A program made the position numbers and the translations under genes. Below are positions 25,834-37,996 of a DNA stretch of 39,733 nucleotides, piece after piece; position 1 is the first letter of the stretch; each line of letters starts with the position of its first letter. The DNA lies in the IMG/VR virus record IMGVR_UViG_3300024264_000077, positions 1-39,733 of that record; one strand, given 5' to 3'. The notes under the pieces were generated by a model, which was not told where the DNA came from, ran no database searches, and saw nothing but the letters and a program-made list of their open reading frames with translations. This DNA is from a virus.

Positions 25834-28800
25834 ATGTCTAAAAATCTCTTTGATAAAGCATCGTATAGTATAGTCAGAACTAATCCTAAGTTAACAGGTA
25901 ATGTTAAACTTATTAGTAATGGTACCGATTTATACTTAGAATCATTTAGTGCAAACACTGAACTCTCATCGTCTACATTTAAAGCATTTAAGATAAGTGG
26001 TAAAGATACTTATGATAGGGATGTATGGAAATTTTTTCAAGGTGGTAGATTTCCTGCTAATTTAGGTTATGAAGTATTTCAAGAATTTCAAGATGTATCA
26101 GTATTATCACAATATCAGAATCAATATGAAATGTTTTATTCTGCAGGTACACGGTCTGTATCATCTAATTCATATTCTGATGATCTTGGTCTACTTGCTC
26201 CAATTTGGCTAAATGAACAAATACCTGAAAACTTTGTAATATTTAGAATAGATAACCCAGCCGCCGTAAATAATATAAATGAAACTTTACAAAATACAAA
26301 TTATTTAAACGCGCAAACATCCGCAAAATTTACAGAAAATGTTTTACAAAACTGTACGGCAATTAAAACCTTTGATTTATCATCTAATAGTTTACTTGGA
26401 TCTTATCTTAGAAATTATAGATTACAAGAATCTTTTCCTAAATCACCTCTTAACATTTCATGGAGAAAAGATGAACCGATACAATGGGCAGGGATAAATT
26501 ATGCTAAAGGTGGGTTTACACAGTCTGGTAGTTTTTCATATGATGGTTTAGTTACACAGGATACTACAATAATAAATAATGAATACTTTTTTACTGAAGG
26601 GTTTGAAAGGAACCGAGTATTATTGGCAAACCTTATTAATATGGAATTTTTATTTACTGATGTTAACGCTGATGATTATTCAATAAACAGATATTTTGGT
26701 TTATATGTTAACGAAATAGAAGAAGGACAGTTTGATATATCAGGAGAAGGTTTTTATAAAAATACTGAGAAAACTCAATTACCTAAAATTAAAACAATAA
26801 CTGAAGTTTCTGATTTACTTAACACACCATTTGAGATAACAAATTCTGCAGGTGTACTACTTTTTCTAGATCCAACTAAAACGACCACAGTAACAGGCTT
26901 ACCTACGCCAACTAGAGTTAATGAAGTTGAATCTATTTTTTACGCAAAGGATAAAGATAATAATTACCATACAGTTAAGAAAGGTTCTAACTGGGGAGAA
27001 AATCAAATAAGATTATTTGATACTAAACTTGATGTGTCTAAATTTGCAGGATTCCAACAACCTGACACTTTTGCAAATGCTACTATTTTACAACAAAAAG
27101 GTAAAGCTACTAGTAGTTTTAAAATATTAGATGAATTAGTAGACGGTTTTAAAATTACATTTTATGATGGTGTTGATTTGGTGGGAGAGATTGCTGCCAG
27201 TACTGCTGAGGCGCCTATACCTGGTAATAATAAAATGCAATTTTTTAATCCTAATGGTACACCACAAGAAATTGCTCAAGCTATTACTTTAGCTATTAAT
27301 CAAGGAATTTCACCAGAGAAAAGATTTTTTGTAGCATCTTATAATGATGATACTATATATGTTCAGTCTAGGTTTGGTGGTAGTAGGTTTAATAGGTTAA
27401 GTTTTGAAATTGATTTTATCCAATACCCACTAATGGTAAATTCCGTATCATCGTATCCAATTACATCAGAACTTCAAACTAGTAAAAACTTCGTTGGAGG
27501 TAATGATGTTAATGGTGCTTTACTAAAAGTGGCTAATGGTGATCAGGATAGGTTTATTAAAGGGGATTTTATACAGTCTAAAAGTGGCTTTGCTGAAATA
27601 GGTGATTGGGTGCCATATTTAAATAGTCCTATTATAAATGATAGAAATAAACAAATAGGATATAATGAAGTAGATGAGTATGTTATAATAACTTTAGATG
27701 ATAATCAGATAAATGTTACTAGGAGTGGGCAGGTTGCTTTATATTCAGATTACCGATCTTCATTTGGTAGGTTTTCATTTTTTCCAGTTAGAGATTTTGA
27801 TTATGATTTTTATAGTGAGATGTATAGCCAAATGGGGGAGTTAGATTATGAGTATACTCACTATAATCAAAAAGACGCAAATGGAGATTATGAAGGAATT
27901 AGTACTAACCCTGAAATAAGAGAATTTTACGATAACGGTGGATTTACTACTTTAATAGGCTTGCTTAAAAACGCAGATCCTGATGTTACTGTTGAATCTC
28001 TTATTAAATGTGAATATGATAGACTTGAGGAAAATTATATAAAACAACAAGCAGTAGCATCTAGAGTAATACCTTATATAAATAAATGGTCATGGTTAAA
28101 TGATGGTAAGAATGTTAGAAATGTACCTTATAGTTTAAATTTAAGCGAGGCATTTAGCCAAAACAATTTTGCGTCTTCTAAATATTCAGTAGGACAAGTT
28201 CCACTAGGGTTTACGCATGAATGGTATTACTTATGTGAATTTCCTTTCTATTTTGATAATGATGCTATCTTAAATTCATGGAGTTATGTAGATACTGCAC
28301 CAACTGATAGTAAAGAAGAAAATCCTTTAACCGGTCAAGTTTACACACCAGGTACATTTCAGAGAGTTGATAAAGACTACTTTAATGATTATTTTATTAT
28401 TGATAAGTTTGATGATAGTTTAGGAAATATAAATCTTATAGATAGACAATTAAGATATGGGAGATTTAGTGGTGGTGATGAAAAGAATTTTGCAGAAACA
28501 TTTTTACGTGGAGTTAGAATAATTGCAAAGCCTAAAGCAAATCCACTCGATAAACCTAATTTTAATGCAAGATCGTTAAAATATATTAATGATGGAAGGT
28601 TTAATGAGTATAGATTTTCAGTAATGCTAATACCTAACGCAGCTGAAAAACCTGAAACACAAATTAAATTTGTAAAGAATGAAAAGTGGAAGACTGTTGT
28701 AATGATGGTATTTTTAACTTTAGATAATGAATGTATAAATGCTGGAAAGCAAGAAATAGATAGAACTTCTCTTTATTCATTAGAAAGTGATTATAAGGTA

Positions 28801-30450
28801 GGATTACCCGGTACTGTTGGAGAATGCGAACCTAAAATAAACAGCGCAACCGGAGGGTATTTTTATTTAAACGGAACTGTGGACGGTGCGCTAAATTTAA
28901 CAGCAACATCATTTGATATACAAGCAAACGCATACTTAGTACAGGGTGTACCAAATATTAATGGAATCCAACCTAGATTTTTAAGAGATATTACTATTGG
29001 GGCTGGTGGTAAATTTAATGATATTGAGTTTACAATTGCCGGGGATGTTTATAGATGCGAAGGAATATCTAGGGTAGTCTCAGATTCACAGTTTTATGCC
29101 GCAGAGATTACAAAGAATGGGACTTCGTTTGTACCAGGAGGATTAGAACCAACATCGTCTGATTTATTATCTGCTACTTATGTTACTGTTGATGGTGGAT
29201 TTAATGCATATTCTGCAAGATTAAGGGATGTTGGTTTTGCTACCATATTTAAAAACGTTAATAAAGGTAATCCTAATATCATATACGAAACTATTGACAG
29301 AGATGGTAATAGGCTACTAGACGATGCTGGTAATTTATTACAAACATTTGTAATTGAATTAAGAGCACAAGCAGATATTTTAAAATCCGTATATGTTGGA
29401 GTCTTGCCTGATCCTGCTAAGCCTACTGTGTTTAACCTTACGGATATTATTGGATATGATTTATCTTTACAACAAAAACCTAGAATAACGCCAATAGGTA
29501 GGCATGCTGGATATTATCAACCAACTTCATTAGATTTATTTTCATTTAGAGACCCTTACTTAGACTTGGATTTCAATAGTGGTTCCCCAATACCTGACGA
29601 GGCATACAAATTAAAAGTATTAGAATTATGTAGATATACTAACACTCAATTTAATAGTAATGATATTGAAAATTTTGGACAAATTAAAAATTTATTTTAC
29701 CATAAAGTAAATGAAGAAGACCCTTCTACTGTATTGGAGCTATCTAGAGACAGTGCATATCTTAGTGTTTATCCACTGATTAATGAAGTAGGAATACAGA
29801 GTAGAGATTTTTATGTGTTTTCTTCTAATTGGGAACCTGCTTATTTTAGAAAGAGTATAGATAAATCACAAATAGAATCTATTATAGGTACTAAAGCCAT
29901 GACAGAGCGAAAGTCTTTTTATGGATCTAAATATTTAAAAGTTCCACAAGAAATAAAATTAGAAACTTTTATTCACTCACCCTTTGTGCGTGATGCAATA
30001 AAACAACCTAGTTTAATAGACGGTACTTTCATGACAGAAGAAAACAGAAGTTCAATCGTCTTTTATAATTTTATTCAAAAAAGATTAATTGAGTTTCTTT
30101 TTACTCCTATTAAAGAGCAGTTTATAAATTATATAAAAGATGCTTTTAGTTTTGGTGATATTACAACTATAGATGATGATGTAGAAAGATACATAACACA
30201 AAACATTTTACAACTTTATAAAATATCTAATGTTGATTTTTATGTAAAGTCTATAAGAAAGAAACAACGAATAGATTATTCTACAGCTGAATTAACCAAT
30301 GCTGAAAAAATATCTGATGGCTTAAGCATAAATACTTCAATAGGATCAAAACTCTTAAATACTAATCCATTTGATTTAAAGCTAATATATAATAAAAGAA
30401 AAGGTTTTACTGAATCATTTGGTTTTAGTATTACTATAGTTAAAAAATAA
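25834..30450 (+). CDS. Giant virion protein of the fibre region, 1538 aa
   Basis: The largest gene of the window. It is mostly beta-rich with few Cys. Features include repeated Asp/Asn-rich passages, NYRLQESFPKSPLNISWRKD in the first third, a central section with ENFVIFRIDNPAAVNN, and a C-terminal helical part (TTIDDDVERYITQNILQLYK). I do not recognise a named family. Neighbours on both sides are fibre-like, so a long peripheral baseplate or fibre-scaffold protein is likely. The gap before the start is A-rich, and no enzymatic site is visible. A copy of AATATATAA (30384-30392) lies near its 3' end. Confidence 0.72.
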   Translation: MSKNLFDKASYSIVRTNPKLTGNVKLISNGTDLYLESFSANTELSSSTFKAFKISGKDTYDRDVWKFFQGGRFPANLGYEVFQEFQDVSVLSQYQNQYEMFYSAGTRSVSSNSYSDDLGLLAPIWLNEQIPENFVIFRIDNPAAVNNINETLQNTNYLNAQTSAKFTENVLQNCTAIKTFDLSSNSLLGSYLRNYRLQESFPKSPLNISWRKDEPIQWAGINYAKGGFTQSGSFSYDGLVTQDTTIINNEYFFTEGFERNRVLLANLINMEFLFTDVNADDYSINRYFGLYVNEIEEGQFDISGEGFYKNTEKTQLPKIKTITEVSDLLNTPFEITNSAGVLLFLDPTKTTTVTGLPTPTRVNEVESIFYAKDKDNNYHTVKKGSNWGENQIRLFDTKLDVSKFAGFQQPDTFANATILQQKGKATSSFKILDELVDGFKITFYDGVDLVGEIAASTAEAPIPGNNKMQFFNPNGTPQEIAQAITLAINQGISPEKRFFVASYNDDTIYVQSRFGGSRFNRLSFEIDFIQYPLMVNSVSSYPITSELQTSKNFVGGNDVNGALLKVANGDQDRFIKGDFIQSKSGFAEIGDWVPYLNSPIINDRNKQIGYNEVDEYVIITLDDNQINVTRSGQVALYSDYRSSFGRFSFFPVRDFDYDFYSEMYSQMGELDYEYTHYNQKDANGDYEGISTNPEIREFYDNGGFTTLIGLLKNADPDVTVESLIKCEYDRLEENYIKQQAVASRVIPYINKWSWLNDGKNVRNVPYSLNLSEAFSQNNFASSKYSVGQVPLGFTHEWYYLCEFPFYFDNDAILNSWSYVDTAPTDSKEENPLTGQVYTPGTFQRVDKDYFNDYFIIDKFDDSLGNINLIDRQLRYGRFSGGDEKNFAETFLRGVRIIAKPKANPLDKPNFNARSLKYINDGRFNEYRFSVMLIPNAAEKPETQIKFVKNEKWKTVVMMVFLTLDNECINAGKQEIDRTSLYSLESDYKVGLPGTVGECEPKINSATGGYFYLNGTVDGALNLTATSFDIQANAYLVQGVPNINGIQPRFLRDITIGAGGKFNDIEFTIAGDVYRCEGISRVVSDSQFYAAEITKNGTSFVPGGLEPTSSDLLSATYVTVDGGFNAYSARLRDVGFATIFKNVNKGNPNIIYETIDRDGNRLLDDAGNLLQTFVIELRAQADILKSVYVGVLPDPAKPTVFNLTDIIGYDLSLQQKPRITPIGRHAGYYQPTSLDLFSFRDPYLDLDFNSGSPIPDEAYKLKVLELCRYTNTQFNSNDIENFGQIKNLFYHKVNEEDPSTVLELSRDSAYLSVYPLINEVGIQSRDFYVFSSNWEPAYFRKSIDKSQIESIIGTKAMTERKSFYGSKYLKVPQEIKLETFIHSPFVRDAIKQPSLIDGTFMTEENRSSIVFYNFIQKRLIEFLFTPIKEQFINYIKDAFSFGDITTIDDDVERYITQNILQLYKISNVDFYVKSIRKKQRIDYSTAELTNAEKISDGLSINTSIGSKLLNTNPFDLKLIYNKRKGFTESFGFSITIVKK

Positions 30451-30459
30451 GAATTAGAA

Positions 30460-33423
30460 ATGGCAATCACCATACAAGATTTACTTTCTTCAGATACAGT
30501 TTCACAGGCAGTTGATAAAATTAATTTTAATTTTGATCAATTGTTACTGAATGGTGGAGGGCCACTTGGACCAGCCGGGCCAGCAGGACCAGCAGGACCA
30601 ATAGGCGGTAGAGGAGAAAGAGGAACCGAATGGTACGAAGGTACTGATCTTCCTACAGTAACTCCACCAACACCAACACCACTAAAGGCGGACTATTATT
30701 TGCAATCAAACGGTGATGTCTGGGAATATAGTGGATTAACTTGGGGTAATACTGGAATTAATTTAACTGGGCCACAAGGTCCAACGGGAGCATCAATAGG
30801 GTGGTCTCAGTTTGGTAATAGCCCTAACCCAGGCTCTGCTGGTACTGATAATTATGATCTTACTGCAAAAAATCTTTCTTACCCAGCATTAATACCTAGC
30901 GGCTCTAATACGGTTAGTACAAACAACCAAGGTGTCCCTGCAACAGCATTCGGTATAGCTGGGCCTAATGATAATGATTATCCAGGTATACCTTTAACTT
31001 CGGCATTTCAGTTAACAACAGAAATGGCAGGCCAATTAGATTCGTCAAAAGTAACTATGCTAGTTCATCAGAGAGATAGTGGTGTTAGAGCTATGTCGTT
31101 CATGGGCGGTGGTGCAATTGCCGGAGAACAATTTGAACAGGATGATTTAACAAAGCTATCTACTATATTCTTAAGTAAAGACGATAGGTTAAATATTGCT
31201 ATACCTAAACAACCTAATTTAGGTTCTACTGCTGATGAGAGAATCGGTTTTAGTATTGATGCAGGTTATAGAGGACAAGCATTTAGGGCAGGAAATGGAT
31301 TAACATTTACAACAGGTACTAAAAGTAGTACTACTTTTGCAGGTGATACATCTGATGTATCCTATATTTTAAACTCATTAACAGGAGCCGGTGAAAATGC
31401 TAAGTTTAATGTTAAAACAATAGGAACTGCTGGTTCTAACGATTTTACTATTGGAGAATTTCCATCTACTTCACCTTCACCGAACGCAACATATACCGGG
31501 GGTATAGTTTCTTTAACTAATAGATTTGCAGTAGCTGCAAATAGTATAATATCATTAGAAACCGCGGCGGCTGGTGAAATAACTTTAAAAGGTGTAAACA
31601 ATACTCTATCGGTATCTGATACTTATATAAATTTATCCGCAACTGGTAATTCACCAATAAATATTACCTCTGTTTCTGGAAATATTACTGTTAATGCAAA
31701 TGGTGGTGAATTTAGAGGATATAGTGATGTAAAGGCAGAGCTTAAGTCAGGTACTAATCAAATTGCAGCAGAAGGCCCTGGTGGTGATATTAAACTTAGC
31801 GCACAAGAAGCTAATTCTGATATAACTTTAACAGCAGTACAAGGTATCGGAGGGCAAATAAGACTACTATCCGCAGATTCAATTAGATTAAATGGATCAG
31901 GTGCAACGGACCCTTATATTGTTTTAGATTATACGAACGCTAATACAAATCATAGATTTATTCAGTATAAAGGTAGACAGGCATGGGGTGATGCCGGTGT
32001 AGGATTTACTGGTACAATACCAGAGGATCAATGGATCTATTTTGCCCCACCAATAACAGCCAATCAAACAATACAGAGATTTGGTTCAACACAGAATTCA
32101 TCACCTGACGGTACAATGTTTAATGTTTTTAACAGTGGGAATGTGGGTGAAAGTATTGCAATAGGTAAACCTGATTATCCAGGATTTGGTGGGAAGTATG
32201 GCTTTATTGCTGTTAATAGTGTTAACACTCCACCACAATCAATAGATAATGGTACTGCTTCAGGAGGAGCTACGTCTTCTGATTATAACCAAGCTGAAAA
32301 ATTTAAAGTAGACAAATCAAAAACTAAAATAAGTAACCGGGTAATATGGGGTGGTAAAAACGGTATTAACTCCATCAGTTATGATCCTTATGCAGCTTAT
32401 TTGCCAAATCCTGATATAACTGTTTCTACACCATACGTCAGAATAGTGGTTGGAAGAACGTCGAATGTTACATCATCTAATATCCTAAATATGACCAATA
32501 ACCCAGGTTTTAATTTAGGTTTTAATTTAAATTTCACGGATGAGTTAGCCATGACCGGTAATCGAGTTTTTGTTGAGGTACTTAATGTCCCTTCTAAATT
32601 TGGCTTAACAATAAATAGCTGTTTTATTGCAGGAACTAATATTAGTTTATCAAACGGTGATCATAAAAACATCGAACATATAATAGAAGGTGATTCTGTT
32701 ATAACTTATAATGAAATTACTGGATTAATTGAAGATGGTATTGTAGGATCAATTAAAGAACACCAAGTACCTGTTGTTATTAAGTTATTATTTGCAGATG
32801 GTACTAGTATTACTACAACACCAGAACACCCATTCTTTATAGAAGGTCAATGGGTTAAGGCTGGTGAATTACAAGTTGGTGATAATACTCATAAACTGGA
32901 CGGTAATAAATTAGCAATATCTGAAATTGAATTAATAGAAGAACCACACACTGTATATAACTTATTAGACGTAGGCAGTAATCATAACTTCTATGCAAAT
33001 GAAACTTTGGTACATAATAAAGGCGGTGGCACTCCACAGTCGGTAATAAGAAAGGCATATGGAACTATAACTCTTAGTTATGAACCATGGTCAATTTCAG
33101 GAACATCAACTGGTTCTACTGTTGCTGGAACTGTAGTATCATCAGAACCTACGGCAGCTTCCGCCGGTGGATGGGAAGTAACTACATCCTCAAGAGTATT
33201 TGAATTTATAAATGTTGGTTTATCTAACACTTTTTATAATTCTGGTGATAACACTGTTTCAGGCCAAGGTATCAATATAGGGGCTGGTTGGAGATGTTTA
33301 GGATCTGCGCCAGGAGCCTTTTTCTTTGGCGGTGATGGTACTGGATTAGTACCAGCGCTGGATATAACATTTGATGCTCCTAGTAGTAGTAGTAGCGGAG
33401 ACGGTAGTGAAAATGCAACTTAA
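30460..33423 (+). CDS. Tail fibre with embedded Hint (intein-like) domain, 987 aa
   Basis: The N-terminus (DLLSSDTVSQAVDKINFNFD) resembles the docking motif of the gene at 19035. A short collagen-like stretch (GPAGPAGPAGPIGG) follows at about 33-55, then beta repeats of a trimeric shaft up to residue 720. Residues 721-853 form a Hint domain: it opens with C721-FIAGT, has the TxxH motif T787-T-P-E-H790 region before PFFIEGQWVKAGELQVGD, and closes with V-H852-N853. The next residue is Lys854, then GGG. True inteins require Cys, Ser or Thr there, so cleavage rather than splicing is expected, as in bacterial intein-like domains. Residues 854-987 make a beta-rich tip ending in a Ser-rich tail. I infer a self-processing fibre. 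Confidence 0.8.
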   Translation: MAITIQDLLSSDTVSQAVDKINFNFDQLLLNGGGPLGPAGPAGPAGPIGGRGERGTEWYEGTDLPTVTPPTPTPLKADYYLQSNGDVWEYSGLTWGNTGINLTGPQGPTGASIGWSQFGNSPNPGSAGTDNYDLTAKNLSYPALIPSGSNTVSTNNQGVPATAFGIAGPNDNDYPGIPLTSAFQLTTEMAGQLDSSKVTMLVHQRDSGVRAMSFMGGGAIAGEQFEQDDLTKLSTIFLSKDDRLNIAIPKQPNLGSTADERIGFSIDAGYRGQAFRAGNGLTFTTGTKSSTTFAGDTSDVSYILNSLTGAGENAKFNVKTIGTAGSNDFTIGEFPSTSPSPNATYTGGIVSLTNRFAVAANSIISLETAAAGEITLKGVNNTLSVSDTYINLSATGNSPINITSVSGNITVNANGGEFRGYSDVKAELKSGTNQIAAEGPGGDIKLSAQEANSDITLTAVQGIGGQIRLLSADSIRLNGSGATDPYIVLDYTNANTNHRFIQYKGRQAWGDAGVGFTGTIPEDQWIYFAPPITANQTIQRFGSTQNSSPDGTMFNVFNSGNVGESIAIGKPDYPGFGGKYGFIAVNSVNTPPQSIDNGTASGGATSSDYNQAEKFKVDKSKTKISNRVIWGGKNGINSISYDPYAAYLPNPDITVSTPYVRIVVGRTSNVTSSNILNMTNNPGFNLGFNLNFTDELAMTGNRVFVEVLNVPSKFGLTINSCFIAGTNISLSNGDHKNIEHIIEGDSVITYNEITGLIEDGIVGSIKEHQVPVVIKLLFADGTSITTTPEHPFFIEGQWVKAGELQVGDNTHKLDGNKLAISEIELIEEPHTVYNLLDVGSNHNFYANETLVHNKGGGTPQSVIRKAYGTITLSYEPWSISGTSTGSTVAGTVVSSEPTAASAGGWEVTTSSRVFEFINVGLSNTFYNSGDNTVSGQGINIGAGWRCLGSAPGAFFFGGDGTGLVPALDITFDAPSSSSSGDGSENAT
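32620..33018 (+). other. Hint/bacterial intein-like domain within tail fibre
   Basis: Codes for 133 residues, the minimal Hint size, with no homing endonuclease insertion. Conserved points are visible: first Cys (codon 32620-32622), TxxH (His codon 32827-32829), and terminal His-Asn (Asn codon 33016-33018). The downstream +1 residue is Lys. Confidence 0.78.
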
Positions 33424-35838: not shown

Positions 35839-36844
35839 ATCAAAAAGTATATCTAAAGAAAATCTTTCTAAGCCGGCTATAACAAATAAACCTGTAGGCG
35901 TACAGAGTAATATAGCTGTCACGAAAAAAGAAAGAGAATATTTTAAAAAATTTACTTCTCTAAACCCTACAGCTGAACCTTTACCGCAAGGAGAAGGGAC
36001 AATAAGAATATCACCATTTGATGATTATATTATCTTTACTCTATTTGATGAGACTGGCGAAAACGGTGATTTAGCAGATACTCCAATTGATCTAAGTAAT
36101 GTAGGTACTCTTACATTAGTTTTTACCGGTGCAAATGATGAAATAAGAATACCTAACTGGACACAGGTACAGGAAGTTGATTTATCACAAGGACAGGTTT
36201 TATTTAAGATTGATAAAGAAAATTCAAAAAAGGTTTTGTCATTAGATAATCAAAACTTTTATATCTCTACTAGAATGGAAGATGAGAATGGTATTAGCGA
36301 CGAAAGTGTTTTATATGTAGGTACATTTTTAACTGTACAAGATGAGGCTAAACAATCAATGACTGCTAAGTTTAATAATCAGGCATTATTATATTCTAAG
36401 GAATTAGCCGGTCTACAAGGAACTATAAAAAATCTACAAAAGCAATTAGCTGATATGTTATCTTTAGACGAAGAACAAATAGCATTGATAGCAAGACTAG
36501 AGGCATCAAATTTAGAATTAACCAACCAAGTAGCAACACTATCAGAACAATTAGGAAGTACCGAATCTGAATTAGCGTTAAAGAATGCTGAGTTAGTTGC
36601 AAAAAGAGCAGAAGAGCTAAAAAGAAAACGAGCACAAATACAAGCAATACAGAAAGAAGCAACTGAGGCTAGTACAAAAGCAAAACAAGTACGCTATTTT
36701 AAACAAGCCGCTGGTGTTTTGCAAGAATATAATACTAAGCCAATCCCTCTTGTTTTAGATTATTCATCATTTGGCCCAGGGCTTGTTAATGGTTCATTTG
36801 ATTTTAATTTATCACAAGAAATAGAAAACTTTAATAATAGATAA
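35819..36844 (+). CDS. Coiled-coil virion protein, 341 aa
   Basis: The basic N-terminal 45 residues are likely disordered. Residues about 60-190 form a beta-sandwich-like section (GTIRISPFDDYIIFTLFDET; ISDESVLYVGTFLTVQDEAK). Residues about 193-290 are a long coiled coil: LQGTIKNLQKQLADMLSLDE, EQIALIARLEASNLELTNQV, then a Lys/Arg/Glu-rich extension. It starts 20 bases inside the previous gene and its stop shares an A with the next start (TAATG), so translation is coupled on both sides. It could be a fibre connector or trimeric spacer. The function is unknown. Confidence 0.72.
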   Translation: MAAQQNKSKSISKENLSKPAITNKPVGVQSNIAVTKKEREYFKKFTSLNPTAEPLPQGEGTIRISPFDDYIIFTLFDETGENGDLADTPIDLSNVGTLTLVFTGANDEIRIPNWTQVQEVDLSQGQVLFKIDKENSKKVLSLDNQNFYISTRMEDENGISDESVLYVGTFLTVQDEAKQSMTAKFNNQALLYSKELAGLQGTIKNLQKQLADMLSLDEEQIALIARLEASNLELTNQVATLSEQLGSTESELALKNAELVAKRAEELKRKRAQIQAIQKEATEASTKAKQVRYFKQAAGVLQEYNTKPIPLVLDYSSFGPGLVNGSFDFNLSQEIENFNNR

Positions 36845-37398
36845 TGATATTAAGCGCAAGAAATAACCAATTTAAATTTGAATTCCCTAGAAATTTTATA
36901 CCTAAGGAAATTTCAAATAAGTATAAACCATACTTAAATAGAATGCCGGGTGCTATGATTAAAGAACCTATAGATTATTTTAATTATGGAATACAATCAA
37001 TGAATTTACCAGGCCCGAGCTTTGATCCTGTAACGCAAAATGATTTTCCAGGTAATACTAGGAGGTTTAGAACAAGTTTACCTAAACAAGAATTATTTGA
37101 TAAAGAACTAACAATAACAATGCAAGCATTTGATGGTTGGGTAAATTATTGGATGGCTATTGAAGTATTTGACTATTATTATAAACAAAGTGGAAAGAAT
37201 CCATTTGTACCAGAAGGCATAGGTTTACAGATGATTGATGGTGAAGGTAATATTTTTGTTACTTGTCAATTAAAGGATATGATAATGACAGGTGTTAGCG
37301 CGTTGGATTTAAACTTTTCAAGTAACACAATAGAATTCCAGACTTTTGATATTAATTTTACTTATAACATTTTGGAAACTGTAGTTAATCTTGTCTAA
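36844..37398 (+). CDS. Tail-tube or tube-initiator-like protein, 184 aa
   Basis: It resembles the tube fold family shared by T4 gp19, gp48 and gp54: an N-terminal strand (NNQFKFEFPRNFIPKEIS), a middle section with QSMNLPGPSFDPV and ELTITMQAFDGWVNYWMAIE, and a final block (TGVSALDLNFSSNTIEFQTF, then DINFTYNIL). The last part parallels gp54, which ends with a strand-turn-strand that contacts the first tube ring. The size of 184 residues is close to a tube subunit (gp19 is 163). It could be the tube itself or its initiator, and I favour initiator or tube-like baseplate protein because it is not beside a sheath gene here. It starts through TAATG overlap. Confidence 0.7.
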   Translation: MILSARNNQFKFEFPRNFIPKEISNKYKPYLNRMPGAMIKEPIDYFNYGIQSMNLPGPSFDPVTQNDFPGNTRRFRTSLPKQELFDKELTITMQAFDGWVNYWMAIEVFDYYYKQSGKNPFVPEGIGLQMIDGEGNIFVTCQLKDMIMTGVSALDLNFSSNTIEFQTFDINFTYNILETVVNLV

Positions 37399-37420: not shown

Positions 37421-37996
37421 ATGAAAACGTTTGATTTAATAGAAGAACAAAAAAGCACGAAAATTATACCAACAAGAGAAGAATTAATTACATTATTACC
37501 TAAAAATAGTATAGGTGTAGAAATTGGTGTATGGAAAGGTCAATTTTCTAAAATTTTATTAGATGTAGTTCAACCTAAAATGCTTTACTTAATAGATCCT
37601 TGGGAAGGAGACATCATGTCCGGGGATAAAAATGGAGATAATGTTGTAACTATTGATTTGCAAAAATATTTTATAGAAAATATTATACCTGAATTTTATT
37701 TTTTGGATAATGTTAAAGTATTAAAAACATATTCAACTATTCTTAAATTATTTCCAAATGAATATTTAGATTGGGTTTATATAGATGGTGATCATGAGTA
37801 TGAAAGTGTTAAATATGATTTAGAAGTTAGTTATCCTAAATTAAAACAAGGTGGAGTAATTTTAGGTCATGATTATACAAACACAATGTTTCCATCAGTA
37901 GTTAAAGCGGTAGACAATTTCTGTAGTGAAAAAGATTTAAAAATAGAATATGTTACTGAAGATGGGTGCCCTTCTTACTTTATAATTAAAAAATAA
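37421..37996 (+). CDS. SAM-dependent methyltransferase, 191 aa
   Basis: A class I methyltransferase of the small glycan- or metabolite-type group. Motif I is GVEIGVWKGQFS (about 30-41), followed by MLYLIDPWEGD. The later block WVYIDGDHEYESVKYDLEV, then LKQGGVILGHDYTN, is the characteristic acidic and His-containing end of the Rossmann fold. The substrate is not visible; sugars, lipids or proteins are possible. The start, MKTFDLIEE, resembles the capsid-targeting starts of T4 internal head proteins and matches the start of the next gene, including upstream bases GCAATGAAAAC. I see this as suggestive only. Confidence 0.82.
   Translation: MKTFDLIEEQKSTKIIPTREELITLLPKNSIGVEIGVWKGQFSKILLDVVQPKMLYLIDPWEGDIMSGDKNGDNVVTIDLQKYFIENIIPEFYFLDNVKVLKTYSTILKLFPNEYLDWVYIDGDHEYESVKYDLEVSYPKLKQGGVILGHDYTNTMFPSVVKAVDNFCSEKDLKIEYVTEDGCPSYFIIKK

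Follow-up and report, generated by a model that had tools for sequence, protein, structure and literature searches.

Bacterial intein-like (BIL) domains are said to have been described in 2003, by Amitai, as Hint domains without a nucleophile at the residue that follows them (+1), and the original papers on them are reportedly those of Amitai (2003), Dassa (2004) and Aranko (2013). According to reviews, type A BILs end in His-Asn, have no +1 nucleophile, sit in variable regions of their host proteins and mostly cleave (PMC4031507, PMC5874633, PMC7664689, PMC7765530). They are able to splice according to one review, Asn cyclisation freeing an amine that then attacks the thioester formed at the N-terminal end, and a BIL from Magnetospirillum spliced only once its +1 Tyr had been changed to Cys (both PMC4031507). 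On ligation by type A BILs the reviews are not of one voice: another reports BIL splicing in some instances (PMC5874633), one emphasises cleavage (PMC7664689) and one describes type A BILs as unable to ligate their flanks (PMC7765530). Inteins are known from phage enzymes, for example the terminase and the ribonucleotide reductase of phiCbK (PMC3556154). Among the papers listed in a collection without most subscription journals and all bioRxiv preprints, no account of a Hint or BIL domain in the tail protein of a phage was found. Here we describe such a BIL-type domain inserted in the hypervariable end of a phage fibre, with Hint-free homologues available for comparison, and similar Hints that recur in front of Lys-Gly-Gly in tail proteins of other environmental phages.

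The window, by which we mean the whole stretch of viral DNA analysed (39,733 nucleotides), contains the following features of the fibre gene, where L001 is a second Hint-bearing fibre, L002 its near-identical copy and L013 the nearest Hint-free one:

30460..33423, + strand: fibre gene, 987 residues, a single open frame running through the Hint (ORF and translation), with relatives at 65 environmental phage loci
30460..32139, + strand: residues 1–560, conserved N-terminal part and shaft (90.5% identity to L001)
32140..32619, + strand: residues 561–720, first half of the hypervariable C-terminal domain by identity comparisons, ending in VEVLNVPSKFGLTINS
32620..33018, + strand: Hint domain, 133 residues, C721–N853 (Pfam, TIGR01445, PDB sequence match, predicted fold)
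32620..32622, + strand: Cys721, predicted to be the nucleophile in the N-S acyl shift, retained in L001 and L002 (translation)
32818..32829, + strand: Thr787 to His790 (TxxH), invariant in our Hint alignment A1 (translation)
33013..33018, + strand: His852-Asn853, expected site of Asn cyclisation, retained in L001 and L002 (translation)
33019..33030, + strand: Lys854-Gly-Gly-Gly, C-flank motif common to other tail-protein Hints (translation, locus comparisons)
33019..33420, + strand: residues 854–987, remaining half of the hypervariable C-terminal domain (46% identity to L001, 49% to L013)

A Hint at C721–N853 had been proposed in a sequence-only reading, and the translation agrees with it: codon 721 starts at 32620, codon 853 ends at 33018, TxxH is present at 787–790 and His852-Asn853 at the end, directly followed by Lys854 and three Gly. 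The profile search of Hint families suggested there gave matches above the cut-offs throughout, namely to PF07591 (PT-HINT; E=1.2e-14, score 55.2 bits, cut-off 27.7), to PF14890 (Intein_splicing; 39.4 against 35.8 bits) and to TIGR01445 for the intein N-terminal region, which starts at residue 721 (26.2 against 24.5 bits). No homing-endonuclease family is among the Pfam matches of the fibre, and PF07591 matches the window's record once. T787 and H790 (domain positions 67 and 70) are invariant among nine aligned Hint sequences. As the Hint of L001 has the same catalytic residues at 84% identity, the domain in the window is not a product of chance; it is complete and probably active, with a non-nucleophilic residue at +1. 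Upstream of a homologue of the fibre N-terminus (46% over 110 residues), the 462-kb record of an uncultured phage, LR756500 (L010:405-5330), has an ORF of 1527 residues that resembles, by eye, the product of window positions 25834–30450.

Among solved structures the best match by sequence was the BIL domain 2LWY from Clostridium thermocellum (query residues 5–137 on chain residues 4–138, E=3.5e-12), whose +1 residue we take to be Ala. In an AlphaFold2 model built on a 20-row alignment the blocks across residues 720–849 reached a pLDDT of 89–97 and the block holding the C-terminal junction 64; the other blocks had 30–84, and the C-terminal domain around the Hint was poorly modelled, as was the C-terminal domain of L013 (mean pLDDT 54.7). 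Comparison of the predicted Hint with the PDB ranked the BIL domains 6Y75 (Z 23.3) and 6TMM (Z 23.1) at the top and gave Z 21.8 for 2LWY (rmsd 1.4 Å over 133 residues), with mini-inteins (Z up to 21.5) and then Hedgehog (19.3) below the BIL domains. The chains of 6Y75, 6TMM and 2LWY likewise came first in Foldseek. By predicted structure and by profile the domain has the HINT fold.

To see how the Hint is distributed we compared the fibre with its relatives, the query of residues 1–720 leading to 65 loci. Across the collected loci 68 ORFs match the shaft (phmmer E≤1e-4) and seven of them hold a Hint: that of the window (L004) and those on pieces of two near-identical contigs (L001, L011 and L087; L002 and L012; L167, whose sequence is compatible with both). 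Since the fibre genes of L001 and L002 are one base apart, the independent Hint-bearing fibres known are two. No Hint (phmmer E≤0.01) was found in the other 61 of the 68 ORFs, four of which run off their contig. In many of these relatives the distal part has diverged too much for the site to be recognised, so the informative set consists of the 17 other loci whose match extends to residue 710–717 (L011 and L012 left out), and all 17 are without the Hint. Among seven longer records, PF07591 matched once in each of the two Hint-bearing ones and was not found in the other five.

The nearest Hint-free fibre, L013 (57% identity across residues 1–717), reads PSKFTMTTS/GGGKSQSYARAAFGTI at the site, the window PSKFGLTINS(C..N)KGGGTPQSVIRKAYGTI and L001 PSKFVLTTGS(C..N)KGGGTPQS. 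Because the homologues retain the chain on both sides, the Hint interrupts one domain, and from these alignments it is an insertion, placed precisely and in frame. Set side by side, MTTS/GGGKSQS of L013 and TINS(Hint)KGGGTPQS of the window leave an extra Lys over in a comparison with a homologue that is only 57% identical; L013 has no Lys at the site. The Hint had been thought to lie between a shaft and a tip. Its actual place is inside the C-terminal domain, through which Hint-free homologues are continuous, and the split of the fibre into a shaft of 720 residues and a tip of 133 is therefore rejected. The rest of the description holds: the domain is complete, its +1 residue is non-nucleophilic, and it is bacterial intein-like, not a canonical intein. 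A cut at the Hint would put a nick in the C-terminal domain and would not release such a tip. When further relatives of the fibre end were sought, 15 candidates all failed confirmation in one search, and the four loci from a second search belong to the contigs of L013/L014 and L001/L002.

Between the window and L001 the Hint is a conserved island in a hypervariable domain. Identity is 90.5% for residues 1–560 (dS 0.27), falls to 63.8% for residues 561–640 and 57.5% for residues 641–720 (dS 1.23), rises to 84.2% in the Hint (dS 0.34, dN/dS 0.25) and drops to 46.4% for residues 854–987 (dS 0.75, dN/dS 0.65). Within the Hint, residues 721–790 are 75.7% and residues 791–853 93.7% identical, with a dN/dS of 0.10 for the half ending in His-Asn. 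Nucleotide identity in steps of 150 bases is mostly 86–98% in the surrounding genes (73–87% around 36150–36850), 59–72% in the fibre end on either side of the Hint, and 89 and 93% in the two steps that lie wholly within it. Residues 1–560 of the window are far closer to L001 than to L013 (90.5 vs 61%), and the part after the Hint is 49% identical to Hint-free L013 and 46% to Hint-bearing L001. The Hint is under purifying selection. Either the fibre end was quickly exchanged or diversified, with the Hint evolving at the rate of the rest of the genome, or the Hint was gained separately. Outside the fibre, a methyltransferase ORF (PF13578, E=4.1e-18) lies at window positions 37421–37996, and the otherwise collinear L011 contig has no DNA matching window positions 37433–37984.

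The host region of the Hint is thus variable (flanks 46–64% identical against 90.5% for residues 1–560), which together with the HINT fold, a Cys at position 1 plus TxxH, the C-terminal His-Asn and a +1 residue other than Cys, Ser or Thr (Lys854) makes it, by the features tested, a type A BIL-like domain. We give a probability of roughly one half to self-excision of this A-type element, in which Asn cyclisation and aminolysis would bring about splicing and cleavage would be a side reaction. The Hint occupies a Ser/Gly loop in the C-terminal domain, immediately ahead of Lys-Gly-Gly-Gly, and the fibre would be synthesised as a precursor of 987 residues. Cys721 would take up the carbonyl of Ser720 as a thioester and cyclisation of Asn853 would free the amino group of Lys854, whose attack on the thioester would join Ser720 to Lys854 and release the Hint of 133 residues, a route of aminolytic splicing that needs no +1 nucleophile. 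Competing hydrolysis of the thioester would leave the domain nicked but probably still folded. Once mature, the fibre would be 854 residues long, close to the 845 of Hint-free L013. That the Hint is active, the order of the steps and the preference for splicing over cleavage we infer from the BIL relatives by sequence and fold, the documented type A route, the empty homologues, the selection on the Hint and parallel cases of Hints with Lys at +1.

These parallel cases came from several searches. A motif scan that left +1 free showed, among the matches listed, Cys, Ser or Thr at 117 of 121 VHN sites, Lys at three and Val at one, so that Lys is the main exception; 75 of the 121, all with Cys, Ser or Thr, had no Hint-profile match near the motif. 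Scanning for VHNKGG, which selects Lys by design, gave at least 116 occurrences in ORFs, and in at least 106 of these cases the ORF also matched a Hint. Two tail families were found with queries holding no Hint letters, and together they have Lys at +1 in 52 of 52 occupied sites, counting for the first the best 80 of 225 relatives. The first family consists of gpJ-like tail-tip proteins, of which L079 and L129 were checked and have PF13550 and PF24801, and its best 80 of 225 relatives comprise 43 empty loci, 20 with a VHN Hint and 17 with an LSN-ended one, Lys being at +1 in all 37 occupied loci. The LSN-ended variant, with Leu-Ser-Asn in place of Val-His-Asn before Lys-Gly-Gly, is seen in L330, L335, L337, L341 and others (17 of the 80). 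Occupied L317 reads GAKGG(C..N)KGGGKGGG and empty L343 GAKGGKGGGGG. Among the same best 80 of 225, joining five residues of one flank to four of the other gave a 9-residue string present in some empty locus for 18 of 37 occupied ones (25 of 37 for strings of 8 residues and 33 of 37 for 7), although the strings are Gly-rich and the 18 come from just two of the 12 distinct flank pairs, which leaves considerable room for chance similarity. KGG occurs in 30 of the 43 empty loops and is absent from 13.

In the second tail family (PF13550, checked in L096) 38 of 54 loci are empty, 15 are occupied, each with Lys at +1 and Cys at position 1, and one is cut off. Here two to five residues precede the Hint; in L096, L397 and L400 the proteins open with Met-Cys and continue with Cys-Phe of the Hint, leaving an N-flank of two residues. 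Empty L408 reads TECKGGGGGGGG and occupied L397 MC(C..N)KGGGGGGG; a loop of this kind is missing from most of the remaining empty rows, of which three, L448–L450, are weak relatives. DNA-level homology is unlikely as the cause of the constant Lys: over 28 distinct occupied sites its codon is AAA 22 times and AAG six times, and the Gly codons also vary, so the constancy is at the protein level. In both families the Lys is probably part of the host loop. In the fibre of the window, whose relative L013 has no Lys there, it may belong either to the loop or to the element.

Further Hints differ in their ends. L138, L174 and L175 (N-terminal part) have Hint relatives in front of KGGG whose first residue is Gly (SGFTAET) and whose domain is without Cys, in L138 also without TxxH; going by these residues they seem capable of C-terminal cleavage only. 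Three tandem Hints, each ending in VHN-K-G and spaced only by Gly, lie in one frame of 613 residues at L146:8841-10028. The Hint proteins of L204 and L270 stop right after VHN-K and have a second Hint-like end (VHN-R, AHN-R) further upstream. BIL-like Hints also occur in two Ruminococcus phages, where +1 is Ala or Ser, and in a faecal phage, where it is Leu. Two Hint queries of the Lys+1 type, cut before VHN, matched 41 and 52 INPHARED records, in which the matches with named features were mostly recombination proteins, helicases and terminases and many were hypothetical proteins. Bacterial relatives of the window Hint were sought with short patterns, a method that reaches close relatives only, and none of 40 candidates was confirmed.

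It is also possible that the Hint only cleaves, cutting at Asn853-Lys854 and perhaps before Cys721 without rejoining, in which case the C-terminal domain may be a nicked domain of two chains, with the Hint lost or left hanging and the cut as a maturation step. In the reviews BILs predominantly cleave (PMC7664689, PMC4031507) and one denies ligation by type A (PMC7765530). Cleavage only is the main rival because the Hints of the second tail family start two to five residues in, where splicing would achieve little, and because L138 and L174 keep the same VHN-KGGG end without any Cys, an indication that C-terminal cleavage is what these Hints have in common. The tendency of BILs to cleave, the missing Lys in L013 and the count of only two independent Hint-bearing fibres all speak against splicing. 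We nevertheless prefer self-removal by splicing, since both fibres retain both catalytic ends and the insertion lies within one domain that is continuous when Hint-free.

Extending this preferred reading, one may speculate that tailed phages carry widespread, endonuclease-free, self-removing Hints adapted specifically to the Lys-Gly-Gly loops that fibre and tail-tip proteins have. The +1 Lys would be functional, its alpha or even its epsilon amine (isopeptide) replacing Cys, Ser or Thr as acyl acceptor, and a chemically distinct Lys+1 splicing class would mature the host-facing end of the virion; we regard this generalisation as unlikely. Less probable still is an inactive passenger, in which the inserted Hint persists as a folded surface module and undergoes no processing. 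Its insertion in a loop of a hypervariable domain speaks for this, but the catalytic residues are intact in both fibres and dN/dS is low (0.25, and 0.10 for the half ending in His-Asn). Hedgehog is coupled to cholesterol by thioester-mediated attachment. A coupling of the fibre to a partner whose amine or alcohol attacks after the N-S shift would be chemically available likewise at what we infer to be a probably exposed domain, but nothing in the analysis supports it and it is very improbable, the Pfam matches of the fibre including no extra acceptor domain and the nearest acceptor being the fibre's own Lys854 amine.

If these Hints splice, a self-removing element would mature the host-facing part of a virion, and the mechanism of BIL splicing could be tested directly through the constant Lys; if they only cleave, tail tips would be built as nicked proteins. 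A phylogenetic tree of Hints (77 rows, 135 columns) joined the window and L001 firmly and placed 2LWY, the window and faecal-phage Hints in one set of 11 rows, with weak support (91/71). The Hints with Lys at +1 are not united in it; the starred branches force at least four changes, so a single origin is not supported, and as most Lys rows came from a Lys-containing pattern the tree says little on how Lys arose.

The comparison with known systems can be drawn as follows. The Hint resembles phage class 1 mini-inteins in Cys1, TxxH, His-Asn and insertion with empty alleles, but these have Cys, Ser or Thr at +1 whereas the Hint has Lys and sits in a hypervariable structural domain; a canonical class 1 intein was rejected on the +1 Lys, found also in L001, and on the hypervariable rather than conserved functional site. 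PF07591, named after the pretoxin HINT of polymorphic toxins, is its best Pfam model, and this reading was rejected too, because no Pfam domain matches past residue 849 (E≤0.1), where a toxin would directly follow, and the C-flank is homologous to the fibre end of Hint-free L013. BIL2 of the Tetrahymena BUBL1 locus (6Y75, 6TMM) heads both structure comparisons, but host protein and organism differ and identity is 27–28%. With the C. thermocellum BIL (2LWY) the Hint shares the fold, a full-length sequence match, the His-Asn end, a non-nucleophilic +1 residue and a variable host region. Unlike 2LWY, it lies in a phage fibre with Lys before Gly-Gly-Gly at +1, a context recurrent in other phage tail proteins, and has Hint-free homologues that display the empty site.
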